From Psilocybe azurescens (lineage: Eukaryota > Basidiomycota > Agaricomycetes > Agaricales > Agrocybaceae), in the NCBI GenBank assembly GCA_023853785.1, contig JAJIRX010000590.1, positions 124,001 to 188,000 on the forward strand: 64,000 bases of DNA, given 5' to 3'. Shown here piece by piece: positions 22,101-41,869 of the stretch (the stretch's first letter is position 1; each line of letters begins with the position of its first letter). The notes below the pieces were generated by a model that ran no database searches, was not told the DNA's origin, and saw only the letters and a program-made list of their open reading frames with translations. Made by a program: the position numbers and the translations under genes.

Positions 22101-22797
22101 CTAGCTAGTAACCCTACGCTTCAGCCACTTATCGTACTCCTCTTGGTTACTCTTGACGTTGTTATACACCGCTTCCCAGTCTTTGCACTCGTATATCCCA
22201 TGCCAATCGATAGGGTTTTTATGGGAGGCAAATTGAAAGGATTCGAGTTCCAAATCACCGCGACACATCACGATTTGCCGGATATAGTTCAGACAATGCC
22301 TCCCTAGGACCGATGGACCAGCGTAATTCTCACTTCTATCGCGGACCATTTCCTCACGTAGGATGTCCAAGCACTTCAGCTGATGCATCATCGCGACTGT
22401 GTACGGTTGTCGGTGCGGACCTAGGTGCACGACGCCGTTCTGCGGTGCGATTGCCGCCCATTCTGCTATTCCATCCTCCTCGTCCAGCCGGAAATGCTTA
22501 GGGTTGTCGAAGGTCATCAAGACCGATTTTCGCTCGATAGGCCATACTTCTGGGTAGTCGTGCCCGATATAACCTGAGAAGCACGGAGTTGGGCGTTCGA
22601 TTTTGAATACAGAACAATTCGTCAATTGCAAGGACTGAAAAATCCCACTCACTGTACTCCCGTGTCAAATAAGCAACCTGGCTTTTGATCCACAACGTCC
22701 CAGCCAATTTGAGCGCGAAACTCAAGCCGACGAGTAGCAGACTCAAACTCGTCAGCGAAAGAGGCGAACGGTGCTTTGACTTTAGAAGCGAACGCAT
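22101..22797 (-). CDS. UstYa-family (DUF3328) protein 1, with altered HxxHC motifs
   Basis: Exons 22653..22797 and 22101..22573 (79-bp intron) give 205 aa. The N-terminus has a single membrane anchor (residues about 13-33, LTSLSLLLVGLSFALKLAG). The rest matches the UstYa fold pattern: a YIGHDYPEVWP segment, MMHQLKCLDIL, then RHCLNYIRQIVMC and a C-terminal ECKDWEAV block. UstYa proteins are membrane-anchored copper-type oxidases that cyclise dikaritin RiPPs in the secretory pathway. The family's two HxxHC motifs are degenerate here. The first reads HQLKC (second His replaced by Lys) and the second LGRHC (first His replaced by Leu). It may be a non-catalytic or changed-function partner of the intact paralog at 37297-38021. 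Confidence 0.85.
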
Positions 22798-23432: not shown

Positions 23433-24672
23433 ATGTCTGCTGCGTTGACAACGTTTGAGCACTCGTTTTACATCGGCAACTACATGAGTGGCATCCTGTA
23501 CGGTGCGTAGCGATGTCTGCCCCTGTATTATTTATGCTGTTCCGCGGGCCGTTTTCCTGACGATGCCGTTGTTTTCGACCCTACTAGGGGTGGAGCTGGT
23601 CATGTATTTTATGACACTGCAGGGTCTATTCCGCAAGGGTAACCACAACTCCGCCAAAAGCAGAAGATTCTTTGCCATCTATAGCACCCTTTTGTTGCTC
23701 CTCTTGACCATTGACATCTCGGTCAACGCAGTATGGGGGGAGCAGATGTGGATCACATTCCGCGACGGTCCTGGGGGTGTACCTGGATTCATTGCCACAC
23801 AGACCTCCGTGTGGTATCAGACTCTGGGCTCAACCTCTGTTGTTGCTATAATCTTCCTGGGTGATGCTCTCTTGGTATGAATGAGCGTCTATACAGTCTA
23901 CACCATGGCTTAATTCATTCTTCCTTTAGCTTTACCGCCTCTACGTAATCTACGGCCAGAGTTATCTCGTCATTGCCTTCCCAGTTCTAATTTACCTTGC
24001 CGCATTCTGTAAGTTCGCAAATCTCTACGTCATGCATGAAACAGTTTCTCATTGGATACGCCCATAGCATTGGCCATTATCGAACTGGTCCTCGCAGGAA
24101 AGCCTGGAGGTAACTTCTTCCACGGCAAGACGATCAACTTTGGAACCCCATACTACACGTTAACAATCGCTTCCAATATCTTCGTGACTCTTTGCATTGT
24201 CCTCCGTCTCAGGAAACTCGGGACGGCCGTATCACGGGCTCTTGGAAAAGACAGCGCAAGAATGTATACCAGCATTGCATCTATGCTCGTCGAATCTGCG
24301 ACTCCGTACAGTCTAGTTGGGATCATGTTCTTGATTCCCTACGCACTCGGAAACGGAACTGCAATCTCGTTTGGACAGGTCTGGGCAAAAATAGCTGTAT
24401 GTCTACTTTTTGGCTTCTACTATCAGAATTCTCTAACATTATTCTAGTGTTTGTCCCCTCAGTTAATCGTATTACGGGTGGTGACCGGAAAGGCTTGGGG
24501 ACGAGAAATTATCACTCAAGCACAAAGTAATGTTGAATTTATCGTGCGACCTAATGCCCATTCCAGTGGTATTGAAATGCAACAAAGCGTTCATTACAGC
24601 CACGGGGGTACCACCTTGGGAGACAACGCCACAGAAAAATGGAACGGTAGCACCAAAAGTTTATCGTCGTAA
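23433..24672 (+). CDS. Basidiomycete seven-helix membrane protein 1
   Basis: Exons 23433..23502, 23588..23874, 23930..24008, 24068..24396 and 24448..24672 give 329 aa. About seven hydrophobic helices are visible, including GILYGVELVMYF, the segment around STLLLLLLTID, VVAIIFLGDALL and PVLIYLAAF, then an external loop (AGKPGGNFF). The C-tail is hydrophilic. This belongs to a large, functionally uncharacterised family common in mushrooms. The paralog at 34162-35361 has the same five-exon structure with the first four exon lengths identical (70, 287, 79, 329). Within the island it could be a transporter or receptor-like component, but that is only inference. Confidence 0.82.
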
Positions 24673-25922: not shown

Positions 25923-26225
25923 TTATATATCTGACTCTGCCGCACGCAGGAATGCAGTATCAACCTTATCGATGTTGACTTCACGCAAAAAGATGGTATC
26001 GATTTTAGCCTCCTCGATATCGCGTAGAAAGAAAGTGTCGACCCGAGCTGAATCAAGTTCGCGCAAAAGACGGCATCTATTCGACCGACTTCATTGTTCA
26101 CTACGGTGAAAATATGGCTGATTAGCGCTCATTAAAACGTGTCAGAGATATGCCTCCGCACCTGCGACTGGAGAGGCCAGGCTTGACAGGATAAGAGCAC
26201 CAAGGAAGAGAGATATTTTCATCAT
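25923..26225 (-). CDS. Secreted tandem-repeat peptide precursor 2 (putative RiPP-like precursor)
   Basis: Exon 1 is 26162..26225. It codes a clean signal peptide starting MMKISLFLGALILSS and ending at a phase-1 donor. A 61-bp intron (26101-26161) follows. Exon 2 is 26100..25923. It contains four 13-residue repeats followed by AESDI and a stop. Units 2-4 read LDSARVDTFFLRD, IEEAKIDTIFLRE and VNIDKVDTAFLRA. Unit 1 is split by a one-base deficit at the A4 run 26065-26068, where the equivalent position in unit 3 has five A. Gene architecture and repeat pattern match precursor 1 at 28453. A minus-strand TATA-like TTATAAAA lies at 26305-26312, 80 nt upstream of the ATG. No KR dibasic sites are present. 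Secretion and processing to peptides are inferred. Confidence 0.72.
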
Positions 26226-28452
26226 GTTGGTTTAGCACGGGTGTGGTGACGAATATCTCAGAGGGTTTTAGTGGTTCACTTATTTTCAAAAAGTTTCTCG
26301 GCCATTTTATAATCGCAACGCACAGGACCCTAGAAATGTTACATGTACCCATATATGTGCACGATCTTAAAGCAGGGAAAGTCGCCATCTTTGCCTTAAG
26401 TAAGATCATCACTCTAACCATCGATAATCAGATGCCATATTTGTCTAAAGCTTTAGAATTTGCCTCAATCTGTTAAGGGTGAGGATTGGCTGAGATCTTG
26501 TTGCGGCAGAGCTAGCAGCAAGGCTGTGACGGGCATGATGGATATGGATTAGTTTGCTGGCACACAAGCAATTTATATCTTCTTTAAATAGTATACGAAT
26601 TAGTACATATTCTCGTTTCTTTCCGCTCCATGACTGTATATCTATGTTCCCTTTTCAGTAGAGTCTCAGTTTCTGGAGAGATATTCTGAATGATAGGGTG
26701 CTGCTCACACAAAGTCATGGACTAATAACTGTGGTTGCAAACATATGCGTGACGTTTTGAACTGTACAAAATACCACCGTTCCCCGCCGATCTGACAACA
26801 ATCCTCATGGATAGTACTACGCGGCAGCTAAGGCCACATTCCTGAGAGGGGTGTTAATGACATCCTTTGCAAATCCTAATACGGTCCGATTCAACATGGG
26901 ACTGGAAATCCTACATCGGTAAATTCGAGCATGCGAAAGCAAGGTATATGTCGTGGATTATAAGGATGCGGTATTTCGTAATTCGGAACAATGTTGTGAG
27001 AAAGTCAAATCTGTTCCTAATTCATCTTTGGCATCAGTCAGAAGTCCACTGCATGCTGATTTTTTAAGCCAACCGCGGGCATACCGCCGTTCCAACGGCT
27101 GTTAGAAAAGATGAACAAGGTCCAAGGTGGGTTGTAGTTCTTATTTGCGGGTATGCGCAGTACTTTACGCAATACATGCAAAGTTTAACAATGGATAGCT
27201 CTATTTTGGATAACTATCCCTTTGGTACTGTCCGCATTGGTGTAACGTCCGTTACTTCGATATTTTTATCCTAAAATGCTTGTTCTTAGACAATAATGAT
27301 GCATGGTTTGATTAAGATCCTTGATATTTCCAGTAATATGCGAAGAGTTGATCGTTTATGCTTTATCTGTATGTCCTTATAATACTTCTAGCCATGTTTC
27401 AAGGCTTGGCTTCAACAAATAGCTAAAAATAGGAATAGCTAAAAATAGATGCCGCTGAGTGTTCAGGCCCAGGCCCAGGCTTTGCCTGTTACTACACATC
27501 CAGATTTCAGGTTCGACTGGATTCTGCAGCACCCTGCAGCACCATGAATTTATGACTTTTTAAAAATGCCAAAAATTTTCAGGCACATTAATCAATTTAG
27601 TAATCCTATGGAGAATCTGTGGTATTCAGTACATCCTGCGCCAAGGTGAATTATTTCATGCGTCTCGCCTAAGGTGCACCCACGCGCGCTCGTTCTAGAG
27701 ACTATCCTATTGTCCTTGTAACGGCAGCCCTTTCTATCTATCAACCGCTCTACGAGCATTTCTTCTCCCCCTCGAACGATACAATGGATGACCCTCAGGA
27801 CGGAATCTTTTTCCATGTGCTGATTCAGATGAATTAGGAAGAAATAGATAATTTTCAATTGACGACACCAGTCTATTCAAATAGCATAGCGGCAATATCA
27901 TCTACTTAGATAGTTCTCCATGCTGCACAATCTATTCCCGTTTCTCTTCAACTGCATACTAGAAATGGCGCCGGTGCCGGCGACGCCTTGAAATATTTAT
28001 GCAGCTGGTAGCTGCCTATGTTTAAATTTAAGTCACCGTTTGCATTTCTTCGCGGAAGTGAGCAGATTATTACCTCACAAAATTTCCTCTTAATGTACAT
28101 TTGATAATATTATGTATAAGAGATATACAGTGTTAGGAGGAACAGTGGTGTCTATTTTTCTTGGCCAACGTAAAAGGAACCTTGACAGGATAGCGAAACA
28201 AGCGGGTCCGCATTACTGTCATATTCTCTTATTGATCTGTCTGACATGCCAGTGGCCCCAGACACTAGAGACGGAAAAACTGAGCCGATATACCAAACAG
28301 CAAACAGGCCGGAGTCCGCCCTGAGTCAGTTGAAATACGCGGATCTGCAAATGGAATATATCCGTTATCCCTGTATCTAAAAGATATATAAACTCGACCT
28401 CGTACGCTCCGTTTTTTACAGTCAAATTTACCTGACGAACTTCTCTCATAAA
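26226..28452. other. Intergenic region between the two divergent precursor genes
   Basis: This region separates precursor 2 (minus) from precursor 1 (plus). It carries the TATA-like elements of both and is AT-rich. A minus ORF at 27592-27858 (88 codons) has no signal peptide, repeat or recognisable motif. I found no third repeat precursor here. Confidence 0.4.
28385..28392 (+). promoter_or_regulatory. TATA box-like element of precursor 1
   Basis: TATATAAA lies 61 nt upstream of the precursor 1 ATG. This fits a strongly expressed small secreted-peptide gene. Confidence 0.5.
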
Positions 28453-28741
28453 ATGTTGGATATCAAATTCTACACCATTGCGGCTCTACTACTACTATCT
28501 GTCTCAGCAATACCAATAGCACAAATCGATGCAGGTATGGGTGCATGTTGTCACCATTCATCAAGCACTAACTTTGTTCTTAGTCGAAACAGAAGTTGGC
28601 CGAGCTGATACTGCTTGGTTGCGCGAAATTGAGGTTGGCCGAGCCGATACTGCTTGGTTACGCGAGGTCGAAGTTAGTCGAGCCGATACTGCTTGGTTGC
28701 GTGAGGTCGAAGTCAGTCGAGCCGATACTGCGTGGCTCTGA
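28453..28741 (+). CDS. Secreted tandem-repeat peptide precursor 1 (putative RiPP-like precursor)
   Basis: Exon 1 (28453..28534) encodes a signal peptide (MLDIKFYTIAALLLLSVSA, then IPIAQIDA). A 49-bp intron (28535-28583) has a textbook branch site CTAAC and acceptor TTCTTAG. Exon 2 (28584..28741) carries four nearly perfect 39-nt repeats to the stop, total 79 aa. The units (28589-28627, 28628-28666, 28667-28705, 28706-28738) read TEVGRADTAWLRE, IEVGRADTAWLRE, VEVSRADTAWLRE and VEVSRADTAWL. A repeated short segment with one aromatic residue (ADTAWL) between basic residues, behind a signal peptide and beside UstYa genes, is the layout of dikaritin precursors such as UstA. However, the borders are single Arg residues, not the usual Kex2 KR. 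Function is inferred from layout; I know no named homolog. Confidence 0.82.
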
Positions 28742-30023: not shown

Positions 30024-31046
30024 TTATGGTAAGTAAGCCCATTCTATGTCGTCTGATATTGATTCAAATAAACGCCTTGAAGGGCCATAACCGTCAGGCA
30101 CGAGATAGCGATAGATGGTCAATATAATACGACTCACCCCAAGTTGCGTTCTGATTCGTCCAGACATCAACATCGCACCCTAGGGACCCTTTGGCACAAG
30201 AAATTTGATATCCGATGAAGGAACCTGATCTGCAAAAAAGGGTTCCATGTTGACTTCTCTTCCGATCTTGGCATCTAGAGTTCCCAGCTTGCGGATGCAA
30301 CTTGGGCGTGTCGACCAGCTCAACGTACTTTCTTTCAAGGGTCGTGTGACGGAGAGCTCGCATATGTCAAGGCTCACTACATCACCCGTAGCAGGTAAGG
30401 AAAAGGGATGAGGCAAGACATCTGTACGTTTTGGGAGGCGGACCGCGAGTGAACATTTTTCCATTCCGTAATCCAAGATGTGAAACTGAACTATGGTATG
30501 AATCTACCCAGTAGAAAACAAGTCAGCGCCCAGCAGTGTATACAAAGAAAGTCTTACAGCACTGGAAATTTTGAAATTGCGATCAGGTGGCGAAAGAATT
30601 CCGAAGTCGCTGAGCCATCGGTGAAGATCGACTGGGAATACTTTGTGGGGCTGGTCTTGACTAATTTGTGTAGCCAGGCGAGGCTCGTTCACAATTTTAT
30701 TGTACTGCGAAGGTTTGACCTTCTGGAGGCTGTAGAGCTCGTCAAGTCCAATGTATGGATTTTTGAATTCCAATTTATCTGGCTCGCTTTGCCGGCGAGC
30801 GTCGATAAGTATACGCGCTATGTAAGCGAACGTGATAATGTCCACTAGGAAGAAAACGATTAGCCCAGAAACCATTGCGAGTGTCATCTTGGTCGGGAGA
30901 CTTTGATCCCTCCCTCTTTTCTCTGAAAGAATGCGTCGAGTAACTTCAATTGGAATACACGTAGATAACTCACCGCCATGGTCCTCATACTCATGTGTAT
31001 CGAGCAGAGTCATTGACTCAAATTCGTCTGACCTTTCTGGCATCAT
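30024..31046 (-). CDS. Membrane-anchored But2-like extracellular-domain protein (basidiomycete family), one frame break
   Basis: Exons 30974..31046, 30558..30922, 30138..30503 and a tentative last exon 30024..30052. Start MMPERSDEFESMTLL. A single transmembrane helix (MVSGLIVFFLVDIITFAYIA) follows a short cytosolic part. The lumenal part has blocks such as PHKVFPVDLHRWLSDFG, DYGMEKCSLAVRLPKR, LDICELS, LSWSTRPSCIRKLGTL and CDVDVWTNQNATWG. These resemble a mushroom family annotated with a But2 C-terminal-like beta-sandwich. I am moderately sure of the family and cannot assign a function. The A6 run at 30234-30239 is one base short of joining EPFF to the CRSGSF segment. Without that base the ORF ends at 30180. 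The 3' exon is uncertain. Confidence 0.55.
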
Positions 31047-31704
31047 GATGAAAAGGTGGAGTGAAGCCGTGCAAATTTTTGGTTTGTTTTTAACAGTCAA
31101 CAGTGGCCGGAATTATCTGGAATGACATGTGCAGGAATCTTGGTTGGACGGCCATCCCAAAGCACTCATAATTCAAAACAGAAAGAGGATCAATAATACC
31201 GCCAAGGGTCAAAATATCCATGCGGAATGAAGCGAGTGGCAGTCCGCGAGATGTACATGCAATTTGTGGCGAGACACTGAAATGTTGACAAAAAAAAGCA
31301 AGGGCCTGATCATCGGTAGTTTCCATAATCCGGGCCGGATACCAAAAATAGCCATGCTTTGGGGCCCGGCAGCCGTCAAGTTGACGCTCGGGTTGCCTGA
31401 TTGAAGTTTGAACCAAGTTTGAACAATGATTCCTCACTATGTATCGAGGATTGAGCATATATTCCCTGCCTACCATTTGCTTTCGTAAACTCCGCTCTCA
31501 AGTGCAAGTATGACCTATAATGCTCCTAAATATTGTTAGATCCGAGTCGATTAAAAATTATTGGAGCAAGTTTCTGGGTAACCAAGTTTTTGTCCCCGAA
31601 AGCGAAAGCGAATTGTACTGAAGGAGGAATGTAGCCGTTGCATGATTTGTATTCCAAACGGCCCCAGTCATGAAAGACGAGGACCTCTCTAGACATTAAT
31701 GATG
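31047..31704. other. Intergenic region with one unassigned ORF
   Basis: A 128-codon minus ORF (31090-31476) contains a segment QIACTSRGLPLASFRMDIL but matches nothing I recognise. It could be a relic. Nothing else seen. Confidence 0.3.
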
Positions 31705-32754
31705 TCAGAGGTATTTAGTGAAAATAGGTGTACTGGCCAATCTCCCCATGGAGATGGCATCATTTTCCCTTCCTCGATGGGTGAAGCCTAGGGCGAGATA
31801 AACCGGAACCTTCAAGGAATATTGAGCCATGTTTAGGTGTCAGCAGGTACGTTTTGAACGCACGTTATTATCGTTGGTGGTAGAACAACCCAGTGTATCT
31901 CCAGATACCGAGGCCTGAAAAGCAGTTCTGTAAAGACATGCGACAACGGCCTCATATGGACTGCCCTGTCGTACCTTTTCACGGACAAGGTTAATCAGGG
32001 CCCTTGTAACACCCATTTTCTGATAATCACGGTGTACCATCGCCATGTGAAGCCACCAAGAATCAAACTTTCCCTGTGGAAATATATTTAATCCAGAATT
32101 ATTCGCGGTTGAGTAACAAGTAATGTCCCCCATGAAGACCTACAGTAGGCCCAAGAATACCGTTAACAAATCCCGGAAAGTGCGCAAGATACTGGGGAGC
32201 AAGACATCAATCTCAGGGATATGTAAGATTCGGTTTAGACGTCCCATACCGTTGTTCGGAAGTACTCTTTACCCTGAGTAGGAAGTCGGGTCATAAACTC
32301 ATTAAAGCCAAGCTTTCTCTGTTCGTCGCTGAAAGGATCAAATCAGCCTCGTACGTTGATTGCTTACTGGGGAAACTCACGTGCTGAATATTTCTCGACC
32401 CGGTGGCATCCAAAGAGTGTACCCAATCAATTTACCCTCTTGATTTGTAGCTGTGTAATATTCTCCTGCAAGGATACCCGCCCGTAACATAGCCAAAGCT
32501 TGCAGTTTCATCAACGACTTGTCACCACCCGACAGACTAATCGCTCCCTGGTCTTGAGAATCGCTATTCAGCACAGTCATTGCGGTCCGAGCTGGATGGT
32601 CCCTTACTATCTTGCATAAGTTCATAGAACAAATTAGCCGAAATGTCGATTTGTTCCTCTGAGCACCCAAGATAATCAGATTGAGTCATGGCTTGAAGAA
32701 GAAAGACAGCTTACCCGTTGGATTCTGTACGCGCTGGACCGTGAATGCTGGCAT
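31705..32754 (-). CDS. GNAT-family N-acetyltransferase 1
   Basis: Eight small exons (32715..32754, 32608..32658, 32381..32552, 32250..32328, 32144..32191, 31975..32073, 31864..31914, 31705..31809) join in frame to 214 aa. Visible family features are MPAFTVQRVQNPTEEQ at the N-terminus, GEYYTATNQEGKLIGYTLWM for the central strands, and FDSWWLHMAMVHRDYQKMG for motif A (Q-x-x-G acetyl-CoA loop). STTNDNN and YLALGF follow near the end. GNAT enzymes transfer an acetyl group from acetyl-CoA to amines. In this island it could N-acetylate a peptide or a small product (inference). Exon structure is essentially identical to GNAT 2 at 35660-36773. Confidence 0.88.
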
Positions 32755-34161: not shown

Positions 34162-35361
34162 ATGGCCACCGGAACAGCACTTTTCGAGCATTCCTACTAC
34201 ATAGGAAGCTATATTGGCGGGATCATGTACGGTGAGTTACTGGTATCAAAGCTTATTCAAATGTTGTCACCCACCCTGAAACTTCCATACAGGCTTTGAA
34301 CTAAGCGTGTATTTTATGATCTTGGAGTCATTGTTTCGTAGAGGAAACAAGAGCTCTATGCACAGCAAACGGTTCTGCGCGATATACAGCACAATCATGG
34401 TTCTGCTCACAACCATCGATGTCGCATGTAATGCCGTCTGGGGAGAAGAAATGTGGATCACATATCGGGACCAACCCGGAGGAGTTGCTGAATATATCAA
34501 GACCAAGGTATCCGTTGGGTACGAGACGTTGGGGTCTGTATCTGTTGTCGGCTCTGTGTTTATGGGCGACGCACTTCTGGTGGGACTTCTTTCCACGCCG
34601 GCAATTCTCGATATTCACTTTCTTTCCACAGATATATCGCCTTTTTCTTGTTTATGGAAGGAACCTTGGGGTCATTTTGGTTCCCACTTTCGCGTACATA
34701 GTCGGATTTGGTGAGATTGTCCTTCAGTTGATCTGATACCATGTGCTCATTAGTCTTCCCTGAAGCATTGGCGATCCAGCAACTTGTCCTTGCAGGCAAA
34801 CCCCACGGCGATTTCTTTGGCAAAGATAGTGTTAGATTTGCGGTGGCATACTACACGATCACGATATGTCTCAACATTGTGGTGACTATCTTCATCTGTG
34901 TCCGCCTATTCCGGCTGTCTAGGCGGTTCTCAAGCACGTTAGGCAGAGAGAATGGCCAGGTTTATGGGGGTGCAGCGGCTATCCTCATCGAATCCGCGGC
35001 GCCTTACAGCCTTCTGGGTATGATGTATCTCGTGCCTTTCTCCCTACAATACGGGACGGGTATCCTATTTGGCCAACTCTGGTCGAAAATGAGCGTGCGT
35101 CCCATTTCCTGTCGTCGACTATCTCCAGACAAATTAATTCGATGATTGCTGCAGGGTATAGCGCCACTTCTGATAATATTGCGAGTTGTAAACGGCAGGG
35201 CATGGAGTGAAGATGGTACACAAATCCGGACACCTCTCACCTTTGTCCCGCCCGACGTCACTACCATACCCTCTCCACTTCATTCTGTGGCCTTCCTGGG
35301 CCAGAGCCAATCATCCCAAACGATACTGGAGCACTTGTCATCTAAACATGTCTCATCTTGA
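34162..35361 (+). CDS. Basidiomycete seven-helix membrane protein 2
   Basis: Exons 34162..34231, 34293..34579, 34632..34710, 34766..35094 and 35155..35361 give 323 aa. Paralog of the protein at 23433, sharing for example EHSYYIGSYIGGIMYGFEL, NAVWGEEMWITYRD, VFMGDALL, ALAIQQLVLAGKP and IESAAPYSLLGMM. The C-tail is different and Ser/Pro-rich. The identical intron positions and phases in both copies mean a duplication of the genomic locus, not a retrocopy. Function unknown. Confidence 0.82.
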
Positions 35362-35659: not shown

Positions 35660-36773
35660 TTACTCGGAGGCGGAGTCTATTGTTTGAAGACGTGGATTGG
35701 CCATTCCCCCCAGGGGAGAAGACATCATCTTCGATCCTTTGTATTCAAACCCAAGACCAGTATATACTCGAATCTAAACAATAAGACCAGATAAATATAG
35801 ATTTAGATTGGCGTGGAATTCTCGAATATCAGAAAATACATACATTTTCATCGTTAGTAGTACATGTTGCAAGGCTTTCTCCGGCCCTGATAGCCTAGAA
35901 AGCCATTCAAACTGAATTCAGTACTCCACATACAAGGTACCCAAATCAGGTAACCCACCTTTGTCTGCACCAGTTCAAGGAGAGCCCGTAGAACACCTTT
36001 CCGCTGGTAATCGCGGTGGATCATTGCCATATGTAACCACCAGGAGTCCTTTTGTCCCTGGATACAAAACGACGTGTAAATAAGGAACGGGCGTAGTGTT
36101 ACGTTCCTGTCTTACTGTGGGTCCTAATAGACTTGCGACAAATTCTGGGAACTCGTCTATGTACTATAGTAGTAGAGTGTCAACGATACGCATAATATAA
36201 TTCGACGCTGGCCACTGAATACGAATCATACCTTGCTATTGAAATATCCTTGTGCTTCGTCGGACAGCCTAGACATAAATTCATAGTATCCAAGATTCTT
36301 CTGTTCTTCACTAATCTCGTAATTCAGCGACAATCCAATTCCAAAGACAACTAGCACGTAGAAAATGGATACGGACGTGCTGAAAATTTCGTTTCCGGGA
36401 GGCATCCACATAGTGTAGCCAACCAGCTCTCCTTTATCATTGGTGGCTTCGTAATACTCACCGGAGTGCACTCCTGCACGCAGAATGGCCAACGCCTCAT
36501 ACTTCATTAAGGATATCTCGCCTCCGGCGAGGCTGACAGCACCTAAATCTTTCCGTCAAAACGTAATTCAGTCAATTGAGTCAATGAAATCGAGATATGT
36601 ACAACTAACTCGTCTGCATAACGTCGGTGAATAATGCTGCGGCCGTTTCCAGTCTCTCCTCTAAAATGTCGCAATTAATGGAGAAGAGTTCAGCGTATGC
36701 ATTTAAATTGGGGAAACAGTGAGCACTTGCCGCTAGGACTCTTGACTTGCGCGACCCGAAAGGAGACAGACAT
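35660..36773 (-). CDS. GNAT-family N-acetyltransferase 2
   Basis: Eight exons (36731..36773, 36610..36660, 36377..36542, 36232..36310, 36116..36163, 35959..36057, 35844..35894, 35660..35773) join in frame to 216 aa. Family blocks are MSVSFRVAQVKSPSEE, SLAGGEISLMKYEALAIL, GEYYEATNDKGELVGYTMWM, KDSWWLHMAMIHRDYQRKG (acetyl-CoA motif A) and YTGLGFEYKG. Six of eight exon lengths equal those expected from GNAT 1 or differ by only a few bases. Intron 1 uses a GC donor (GCAAGT at 36725-36730 read on the minus strand) with a normal TTTTAG acceptor. Frame continuity and the match to GNAT 1 support this. Confidence 0.87.
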
Positions 36774-37296: not shown

Positions 37297-38021
37297 ATGA
37301 GGTGGAACGGTGGAGGTCATCGAGCGCAGCTTTTGGCGATTGCATTGTTCGTCGCAGCTTCACTGTATCTGACATGGTCGTTGGCCGAATTCGCCAAAAA
37401 TGCCCAGAAGCTCGTCCAACTGAGGACGCACGCAAGGCGCAGTCATATCGTACGACCGCTGGATTCATACTGTAAGAGTCTACTTTTTGTCACATCACCG
37501 TCATCCTGACATGTCTTCACATAGCATTTGTTGGAGGCGATCATCCAAAGCGTCTCCCGATAAAGGAAAAGCTCGTCAAAACGGTCGTCCAGGAAAGCGT
37601 ACATTTTGACCTGATTGCCCCCGAATCAGAGGCGGAATGGCTTTGGATAGCGTCGGTGGGTGATGGCCACATTCGACTGGGAAAAGAGAAACGGATGTTT
37701 GCAGTCGCCATGTTTCACGAGTTGCATTGTTTGAGGGCGATCCGGAACGTCATGGAAAAGGGTTGGGACACCTTCAGCAAACCGCGACAGGGCCATATAT
37801 TGCACTGCTACAACTACCTTCGGCAATATACGCTTTGCTCTGCGGATGCCACCCTTGAGCCTGGGGATTTTACAAAGCGAAATTTCACCACGGAAAGATT
37901 CGGTGCAACGCATACGTGTGTAGATTGGGAGCCGTCGTATAAAATGGCAGAAGAGAAATGGGCGGAATGGAGCAGGTTCCGCGTAGCGCACGGTATTCCG
38001 TGGCACGACGATGTAACATAA
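37297..38021 (+). CDS. UstYa-family (DUF3328) oxidase 2, both HxxHC motifs intact
   Basis: Exons 37297..37471 and 37525..38021 give 223 aa. The N-terminal membrane anchor (LLAIALFVAASLYLTWSLA, about residues 12-30) is followed by the lumenal domain. It contains VQESVHFDL, MFHELHCLRAIR (first motif HELHC), GHILHCYNYLRQYTLC (second motif HILHC) and THTCVDWEPSYKMAEEKW. These are the copper-ligand-type motifs of UstYa proteins, which carry out oxidative macrocyclisation of ribosomal peptides in ustiloxin, asperipin and related pathways. It is the catalytically competent-looking member of the pair in this island. Confidence 0.9.
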
Positions 38022-39883: not shown

Positions 39884-41869
39884 TCAGTTCATGGCACTTC
39901 GTCCGGGGAATTTGGACGCGTATTCGAAGAAGCGTCTTGCGAGGGTGGGAAGATCGTCGTCTGTTCCAGGGGCGTCTGTGCGTCCGGTTGGCTGCGAGGT
40001 GGCCGCTGTAGAGGTTGTCTGAGCGGCAGTCGTCGAAGTCGTAACGGCCGATGTGGTCACTGCTGTCTCAGCAGCGGACGTCGAGGTCGCATCAACCGAT
40101 GTAGTCACTGCTGTCTCAGCAGCGGATGTCGTCTCCGAAGCTGCAACGGTGGTGGAGTCACCTGCAGTGGCAGTGGCAGTCTCAGTAGCGGCAACGGTGG
40201 TGCTGGCTGCTGCTGTCGATGACGACGATTTAGTTCCTTTTTCCTGTTGCTGTTACGGTTCGTGCCTTTGGACGAAACTCTGTTCTTGTTGAGGTTCTTG
40301 CCGTGCTTATTGGTGGCAGCTGTCGTCGTTGCGGCGGCAGCAGATGAAGACGTGGCCGAAGCGGACTCAGCGGCACCTGCAGCGTCGGTCGCAGCTGCGC
40401 CAGCAGTAACAGTAACAGTCTGGTGTGATTCATGAGCAAAGTGTAATAAGCAGCCGAGGATGTATGAGTGTAACTTACGACGGGGGATGCGGTTACAGTG
40501 ACGGTCTAGTGATGCCAATGATGAATAACCGTAGGGGACAAATGAAAAGGGAAGAACTTACGACTTTGGCTGCAGCTGCAGCTTTAGTGACAGTCTAATA
40601 ACATGAAGGTTAATATAGTCGGCATGGTGTATACAGCAATTACAACTAACGACTTGAGGGGGCATGTATCAGTTCCAGCAGCCTGGGTAATTCGTGATAA
40701 CGAATGGTAAGTACCAACGCGACTTGAATGGAGGAAAAGGGCTGACCGCAGTGGTGGTGGCGGCAGCAGTCGTGACAACCAATACCTTGGTCGATGACGC
40801 GGCTGCCGACGAATCGCTCTTGGATGCTGACGCTGACGTTGACTCAGTAGCGGCGGCTGTAGTGGTGCTGGCAGACGCAGACGATGTGTGGACGGCCGAC
40901 GAGGACACCGACTCTGAGGCGGCAGATGAAGATTCTGTAGCTGTGCCCATCGCTTTGGACGACACTACTGTTGTTTCAGATGCAGAAGCAGAGGTAGAGA
41001 CAGTCTCCGACGCTGAAGCACTAGCAGTCTCAGAGGCAGTTGAGCTGGCGCTGACGCTCTCAGTGGCAGAAGAGGTCACTTCGGCGCTCGTGCTGGTACT
41101 GGCGGTTTCGGCGGGGTGGCAGTCTCGCTAACGCTGGCGGTTTCGGACGCGGACGCAGAGCCAGATACAGAGACGGTAGTCGTTGTGCTGGAAGTTCCGC
41201 ATGCTTCGACGACTTTGGTGCTAGCAGCGAGTGCTTTGGTGATTTGTTTTTCAACGGTGGTCAGCAACTGTGTCACTTTGTTTGAATTGCTTCTGTTGTT
41301 AAAATCAGTGACACACATATCTACTGGGAATCGCCTGTCTTACGCATTTGTGCCGGTAAGGGCGGTTCTGGCTCCATCCAGACCACTAGCAATCAAGCTG
41401 AAGCTGTCGAGAGAAGGAGTAGTGCCCTTGGAGAGGGAATCTGCGACATTGTTAACTCCACTCAGAGATTCCTTCAATCCCTCCTGAATGGCGGTAAGCG
41501 AAGTGATGAGAGTGGCATCGCTGCAATAAATTTGCGAAATTTTAGTGAGGTAATAACAGTGTTGGGATTCAGACAAACTTGGGAGAGGTATTAGCTGTCT
41601 TCACCAGTGCATCGTTGGCCGATTTGATATGAGCGACAAGCGAAGTCTGCGCAGAAGTACATGACGTAGCAGTGTTCTCAGAGGCGGCAGCAGTTGTTAC
41701 AGCAGTGGCTTTCCCTTGTCCGCGACCTTGAAGAGGAACTGGAACGGTTAACGCGAGTTCAGTACGACGCTGCAGGGTTTTAACAGAGAAATATGAGCGC
41801 ACCAGCGTTGACTTGGAATGCACAGGCCAAGACCAGAAAAGATGCCAAAGAGGTGGGGAAGCGTGCCAT
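39884..41869 (-). CDS. Secreted Ser/Thr-rich cell-surface-type protein, HsbA-like N-terminal helical domain
   Basis: Inferred exons are 41803..41869, 41579..41738, 41344..41520, 40747..41289, 40651..40682, 40562..40594, 40479..40505 and 39884..40419. Exon 1 is a signal peptide (MARFPTSLASFLVLACAFQV, cut before VPLQ). Residues about 45-180 form an Ala/Thr/Leu helical region (CTSAQTSLVAHIKSANDALV, ITSLTAIQEGLKESL) reminiscent of hydrophobic-surface-binding HsbA proteins. The rest is a long Ser/Thr/Ala stalk, expected to be heavily O-glycosylated. Tiny exons of 33 and 27 nt and the start of exon 8 each begin with a TVT motif. Three single-base deficits at homopolymers (41113-41116, 40658-40662, 40238-40242) are needed to keep one frame. 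HsbA assignment is tentative. Confidence 0.6.

Follow-up and report, generated by a model that had tools for sequence, protein, structure and literature searches.

A UstYa-linked locus of Psilocybe azurescens encodes a putative tandem-repeat peptide precursor with an invariant tryptophan-containing core between single basic residues

We analysed a 64,000-nucleotide stretch of the Psilocybe azurescens genome (bases 124001-188000 of contig JAJIRX010000590.1, here called C500, of the 70.4-Mb assembly GCA_023853785.1; hereafter the window) and two small genes in it, P1 and P2, which encode short tandem-repeat proteins and lie between two genes of the UstYa (DUF3328) family. The locus is real and coherent, and it represents an agaric repeat precursor that is linked to UstYa genes and carries single basic residues around an invariant tryptophan-containing core. 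P1 and P2 appear to work like secreted multi-copy peptide precursors of the dikaritin or alpha-factor kind, and short peptides are probably cut from them. The reading that we favour, with a probability of about 0.5, is that of a UstYa-linked modified-peptide system that resembles the dikaritins as a variant rather than as a member.

The P1 gene (28453-28741, + strand) is composed of the following parts.

28453..28534, + strand: P1 exon 1, 82 nucleotides, start codon and hydrophobic N-terminus (signal peptide by eye), ending in phase 1
28535..28583, + strand: P1 intron, 49 nucleotides, GT-AG, phase 1
28584..28741, + strand: P1 exon 2, four 13-residue ADTAWL units, stop codon directly after the last core

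The spliced product has 79 residues and contains four 13-residue units. This architecture, a signal-peptide exon ending in phase 1, a short intron and a four-unit repeat exon, had been predicted from the DNA, and the spliced model bears it out. Tandem Repeats Finder (TRF) independently finds the array at 28585-28735 (period 39, score 183). The units had also been described as almost identical at the DNA level; they match at 86% according to TRF and at 82-86% over 66-nucleotide copies, and are better called similar. P1 reached a repeat score of 162 and the P2 frame one of 66. Six shuffled windows, scored in 8,890 segments, gave at most 32.2; therefore, the repeats of both genes are beyond chance. 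In P. cyanescens, nearly the same product is annotated as CVT25_009642 (P0001), which is 99% identical to the P1 protein. The N-termini of P1, P2 and five database relatives are all hydrophobic and resemble signal peptides by eye.

The core was counted in four relatives of P1, namely P0001, P0002 from P. cubensis, P0003 and P0054; P1 of the window was excluded because it represents the same locus as P0001. ADTAWL is present in all 14 units of these proteins (four, three, five and two, respectively), in agreement with the predicted short repeated core with an aromatic residue. Arg precedes every core (14/14) and also follows all 11 cores that are not C-terminal. The chain ends exactly with RADTAWL in three of the four relatives, and P0002 has a further tail. 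A core of five or six residues had been proposed; because three of the relatives terminate exactly at this point, it can be narrowed down to ADTAWL, six residues in length. The P1-type precursors are 69-112 residues long, with two to five units. Comparison of the codons among the units of P1 gave 11 silent and no replacement differences in the core and 10 silent and 6 replacement differences in the spacer, all of which are pairwise counts and not independent events. To judge from these sequences, the hexapeptide between two basic residues is likely to be the product, with the cut placed at those residues.

P2 (26225-25923, - strand) lies on the strand opposite to P1 and is divergent from it. 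Its exon 1 likewise ends in phase 1, as had been predicted for both genes of the divergent pair.

26162..26225, - strand: P2 exon 1, start codon at 26225, hydrophobic N-terminus, phase-1 end
26048..26161, - strand: P2 intron region, with a 61-nucleotide (26161-26101) or a 114-nucleotide (26161-26048) alternative
25923..26100, - strand: P2 repeat exon, unit 1 out of frame, followed by VDTFFL, IDTIFL and VDTAFL units in frame

In the protein search of the genome, P1 and P2 shared 45% identity (E = 1.4e-5), and, by this sequence comparison, P2 is a diverged relative of P1. The pattern proposed for both precursors holds in substance as [RK]-[AVI]-D-[TA]-x-[FW]-L, after which comes either Arg or a stop. 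The cores of the P2 type are more variable than those of P1: the P. cyanescens homologue of P2 (P0053, CVT25_009662) has IDAAFL, VDTAFL, IDTIFL and VDTAFL, and P2 of the window has the three in-frame cores listed above.

Four repeats had been predicted for P2, and this does not stand in the present assembly. With the 61-nucleotide intron, the frame is broken inside unit 1, whereas the 114-nucleotide intron gives a 62-residue protein with three in-frame units. In P0053, all four units are intact, and the protein agrees with the short-intron product of P2 as far as the break. The break is therefore either restricted to this assembly or strain or the result of faulty sequencing. P2 of this assembly may be a decaying duplicate, which would leave P1 as the sole working precursor and would be compatible with the modified-peptide reading. 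The out-of-frame unit 1 and two core residues that differ from P. cyanescens (IDAVF versus IDAAFL and VDTFFL versus VDTAFL) speak for decay. However, the gene is intact in P. cyanescens, three units remain in frame if the alternative acceptor is used, and an assembly error is possible at the break; we regard decay as possible but as the less likely view of P2.

Dibasic pairs (KR, RR, KK and RK) are absent from P1, P2, P0001, P0053 and P0054, and P0002 and P0003 have one RR each. Tyr is absent after residue 30 in all seven precursor sequences. A profile search with five precursors, in which scoring was confined to the 7,996 candidates with the most words in common, returned six rows, five of them from the precursor family. 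The sixth, P0055 (182 residues, E = 4), was judged to be a chance match. A search of the genome for further ADTAWL genes with a degenerate DNA pattern found only three P1 cores, the fourth core being followed by the stop; the reversed control gave 4 and 2 matches. The protein query of the genome gave five rows: one for each of the two exons of P1, one for P2, and two weak matches to other repeat precursors, L004 and L005, which are described below. The suggestion of a new precursor family is supported in that the database proteins stand as hypothetical and the core strings were not found in the main texts of the literature searched.

Both precursors are flanked by UstYa genes, which supports the earlier interpretation.

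22101..22797, - strand: UstYa1, PF11807, 205 residues, one intron (22652-22574), N-terminal hydrophobic helix, motifs HQLKC and LGRHC
37297..38021, + strand: UstYa3, PF11807, 223-residue model, intron 37472-37524, motifs HELHC and HILHC

The PF11807 matches at 22101-22664 and 37476-38021 scored 60.9 and 65.7 bits against a curated cut-off of 25, with E values of 2e-16 and 7.2e-18. The two genes are about 14.5 kb apart with P1 and P2 between them; the distance to the UstYa1 gene is 3.1 kb for P2, and that to the UstYa1 match is 6.0 kb for P1. A study on lichens (PMC12048977) names the double HxxHC motif as the suspected active site and suggests it as a marker of DUF3328 proteins related to ribosomally synthesized and post-translationally modified peptides. 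In UstYa1, motif 1 has no second His and motif 2 has no first His. A search with UstYa1 gave 49 matches at E values up to 1e-5, of which 48 have the Pfam domain, and the reduced motifs (HxLKC or HxLRC, and RHC) were present in all 20 rows that were aligned.

The linkage appears to recur in relatives, as the original prediction required. The P. cubensis precursor, JR316_0000165, stands two locus tags away from JR316_0000167, the relative of UstYa1 in that species, and both are listed with a contig of 4,675,579 bases. In P. cyanescens, CVT25_009642, CVT25_009662 and CVT25_009618, which correspond to P1, P2 and UstYa1 (the last with 99% identity), are all listed with a contig of 181,794 bases. 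The linkage in these two species rests on locus tags and listed contig sizes. The 99% identities of P1 and UstYa1 point to P. cyanescens or one of its close relatives as the source of the window. In the P. azurescens genome, we found at least 28 exon-level UstYa matches on 13 contigs, and the sequence no more than 6 kb away from such a match makes up 0.26% of the genome. The chance of a coincidental proximity between the precursors and UstYa in this genome is small.

Five loci of the genome carry several UstYa copies (C500, C438, C40, C641 and C723), with C40 and C538 counted once as near-copies of one locus. At each of them, at least one copy with reduced motifs has at least one double-HxxHC copy nearby.

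Copies with reduced motifs: L021, L023, L024/L025, L032, L033
Copies with double HxxHC: L018, L013, L022, L027, L016/L017, L019/L020, L026, L031

This sequence arrangement suggests that a reduced and a double-HxxHC UstYa may form a working pair. A partial frame on C40/C538 (L029/L030, ALNHC) is also devoid of the first His of motif 2. So are two partial frames, L014 (SLDHC) and L015 (FVDHC), from C623 and C625, where UstYa is present as a single copy; these two indicate that reduction of motif 2 also occurs outside pairs. The UstYa match sets of C40 and C538 are nearly identical, and the assembly therefore probably holds both haplotypes in part.

In the mechanism that we propose, the P1 and P2 precursors would enter the secretory pathway through their predicted signal peptides, and an Arg/Lys-specific protease would cleave at the single Arg or Lys flanking each core. 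A kexin or a yapsin acting at single basic residues would be a candidate. A Kex1-type carboxypeptidase may then trim the C-terminal Arg from the released core, and the acidic spacers between the cores (EVEVS and EIEVG) would be discarded. One precursor would thus give several hexapeptide copies, ADTAWL from P1 and [VI]D[TA]xFL from P2. From the linkage, we infer that the peptide is modified by the UstYa proteins, and the linked pair of UstYa1 (reduced) and UstYa3 (double HxxHC) would carry out this oxidative modification.

The nearest known systems are the dikaritins (ustiloxin, phomopsin and asperipin, with UstYa/UstYb). Like them, P1 and P2 are short proteins built of tandem repeats (four units in P1, four in P0053, and three that are in frame in P2), with an N-terminus that by eye resembles a signal peptide, and they lie beside a DUF3328/UstYa gene. 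The dikaritin repeats, for which lengths of 13, 14 and 8 residues are given, are similar to the 13-residue repeats of P1. However, P1 and P2 have no KR or RR sites between the repeats, and their cores contain Trp or Phe and no Tyr. The P1-type core does not vary among the species seen, and the host is a basidiomycete. The double-HxxHC feature is present in UstYa3 and absent from UstYa1, the nearer of the two genes, and no tyrosinase was recognised among the 30 sequences scanned with Pfam, a subset of the open reading frames (ORFs) of the window. In a survey of fungal repeat precursors, 65.6% of DUF3328-linked repeats had Tyr (PMC7329392), and about one third are consequently free of it; therefore, the lack of Tyr alone does not exclude P1 and P2 from the dikaritins, and it separates them from a textbook dikaritin less than the lack of dibasic sites does. 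The suggested affiliation with the dikaritins was thus not upheld as membership, given the missing dibasic Kex2 sites, the repeats without Tyr and the reduced motifs of the nearer UstYa.

The basidiomycete Kex2-processed repeat proteins (KEPs; Le Marquer 2019 and Umemura 2020) are also tandem-repeat precursors with a likely signal peptide and several copies of a short peptide. As KEPs, Umemura 2020 counts at least three repeats of at least eight residues between KR, KK, RK or RR, and Le Marquer 2019 at least four fragments after cutting at KR/RR or KK. P1 and P2 fall outside both definitions, and their linkage to UstYa is uncommon for those KEPs. Since they have no dibasic sites, both surveys would miss them by the stated definitions. 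Because both surveys require dibasic sites, P1 and P2 belong to none of the KEP or dikaritin classes tested.

Two other repeat precursors of the genome, the weak matches named above, allow a closer comparison.

1246-1695 of contig C609, - strand: L004 repeat precursor frame, eleven units of type SENDARGNVDWRR, mostly 13 residues
about 1042-1593 of contig C600, + strand: L005 repeat precursor frame, mostly NP[TD]W-[KR]R-EAEA units, alpha-factor-like

L004 consists of NVDW-[KR]R units, with a signal-peptide-like exon upstream (by eye). Both resemble P1 in having a signal-like exon, an intron and a repeat exon (by eye) and a short Trp-containing core followed by basic residues. In L004, moreover, the period is for the most part 13 residues and one Arg precedes every core, and L005 stops directly after its last NPTW core. 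In contrast to P1, both have dibasic sites after the cores, and neither contig carries a UstYa match. The repeat motif of MiSSP8 from Laccaria is DWRR. P1 and P2 have no DWRR, and L004 is nearer to MiSSP8 than they are. MiSSP8 is otherwise similar to them as a small secreted repeat protein of an agaric and a Kex2-type precursor, according to the survey (PMC7329392).

The precursors could instead release unmodified linear signal peptides in the style of alpha-factor and other Kex2 repeats, while the neighbouring UstYa proteins act on another substrate. The invariance of the P1-type core across species would suit a ligand rather than a diversifying toxin. The repeats contain no Tyr, through which ustiloxin, phomopsin and asperipin are cyclised, and DUF3328 is near just 103 of 1680 basidiomycete Kex2-repeat genes, both as stated in the survey (PMC7329392). 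The Trp-containing precursors L004 and L005 are on contigs with no UstYa match, and two multi-span membrane protein genes lie close to P1 and P2. A receptor role for these two membrane proteins was considered, but they match no Pfam family, a fact that also weakens their bearing on a signalling function. UstYa genes lie on both sides of the precursors here, where coincidence has only a small chance, and are linked in P. cubensis as well; furthermore, the same survey reports about one third of DUF3328-linked repeats without Tyr and one linked type with Trp (PMC7329392). On balance, we consider the release of unmodified peptides rather unlikely. The repeat proteins may also stay whole as wall or surface proteins, in which the single Arg residues are structural and not cleavage sites. 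P1 and P2 indeed have no classical Kex2 site, and repetitive surface-active proteins occur in basidiomycetes, an example being Rep1 of U. maydis, although it is cleaved by Kex2 (PMC6339444 and PMC7329392). The chains of 69-112 residues are, however, short for such a role, three of the four relatives have their C-terminus exactly at the core boundary while the units vary from two to five, and the spacer is variable where the core is constant. An intact surface protein is therefore quite improbable.

Several results weigh against the modified-peptide system that we favour. The UstYa gene that is nearer to the precursors and linked to them in P. cubensis is the one with the reduced motifs. The UstYa1 subfamily occurs in many genera of Agaricales and in some other Agaricomycetes, a wider range than that of the precursors, since the database searches, including the profile search among 7,996 candidates, found precursor relatives only in Psilocybe and as P0003 and P0054. 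Short genes are often left unannotated, so the narrow distribution of the precursors is weak evidence, though it is contrary to strict co-conservation. The AlphaFold model of UstYa1 had a mean predicted local distance difference test (pLDDT) score of 61.8 and a predicted template modelling (pTM) score of 0.32, at which the metal site is not judgeable; a sequence search gave no related solved structure (best E 0.2). The 30 scanned sequences contained no recognisable peptidase or tyrosinase, and their only methylase was that of a sirohaem-type gene. The frame of P2 is broken in this assembly, and neither P1 nor P2 has a dibasic site. Scans for peptide repeats covered 45 sources with 248,592 bases (window included, many overlapping) and, at a lower threshold, ten loci, among which were L043-L046, the four further places with several UstYa copies; where UstYa is present as a single copy, the scanned sequence took in about 1.5 kb to either side or incomplete flanks. 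Within this range, no further repeat precursor was found beside any UstYa gene, and the four other multi-UstYa loci (9-10 kb each) gave none in the same scan.

According to the survey, the presence of DUF3328 near only 103 of 1680 basidiomycete repeat precursors suggests that such peptides may seldom be cyclised in Basidiomycota or that the cyclisation factor has a differing motif there (PMC7329392). UstYa-like genes are numerous in agarics; for Pleurotus, 16 are given, of which 6 are developmentally expressed (PMC8893723). No basidiomycete peptide made by UstYa was met in the titles and abstract openings of the papers listed, which is no proof of its absence. The present locus offers a concrete test in a cultivable genus: the core and its masses are exactly defined, two UstYa enzymes are linked to it, and P. 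cubensis has a counterpart with known tags. The calculated [M+H]+ of ADTAWL is 676.3301, or 674.3144 after loss of 2 H and 832.4312 with a trailing Arg; for the P2-type cores VDTAFL, IDTIFL and IDAAFL, it is 665.3505, 721.4131 and 649.3556, respectively. If the modified-peptide reading is true, searches for precursors of this kind must no longer insist on dibasic sites, a possible substrate is at hand for the UstYa subfamily with reduced motifs, and mushrooms have a new route to peptide products. As a more speculative extension, which we hold to be unlikely, ADTAWL could be the backbone of a conserved enzyme-modified mushroom signal. It would have Arg-delimited precursors and a dedicated UstYa pair of a reduced and a double-HxxHC member, a pairing repeated at the five multi-UstYa loci, with the reduced partner kept across the Agaricales.

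The region between UstYa1 and UstYa3 contains five other genes.

23433..24669 (approximate ends), + strand: multi-span membrane protein copy A (by eye), no Pfam family
30183..31112 (gene end unmodelled), - strand: But2-type C-terminal domain protein (PF09792, E 5.8e-6, from Pfam), likely transmembrane
31843..32685, - strand: GNAT-like gene copy A, weak match below the curated cut-off
34162..35361 (one modelled intron uncertain), + strand: multi-span membrane protein copy B (by eye), no Pfam family
35857..36555, - strand: GNAT-like gene copy B, weak match below the curated cut-off

The paired GNAT-like and membrane protein genes suggest a local duplication of part of the locus. Outside the UstYa pair, the window carries a sirohaem synthase-type gene, a DUF726 gene, fungal protein kinases and a frame with an SNF1-type adenylate sensor, which look like ordinary genome content. 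Ser/Thr/Ala-rich low-complexity frames are found at 39884-41127 on the - strand, with a 48-nucleotide tandem repeat at 40016-40131.

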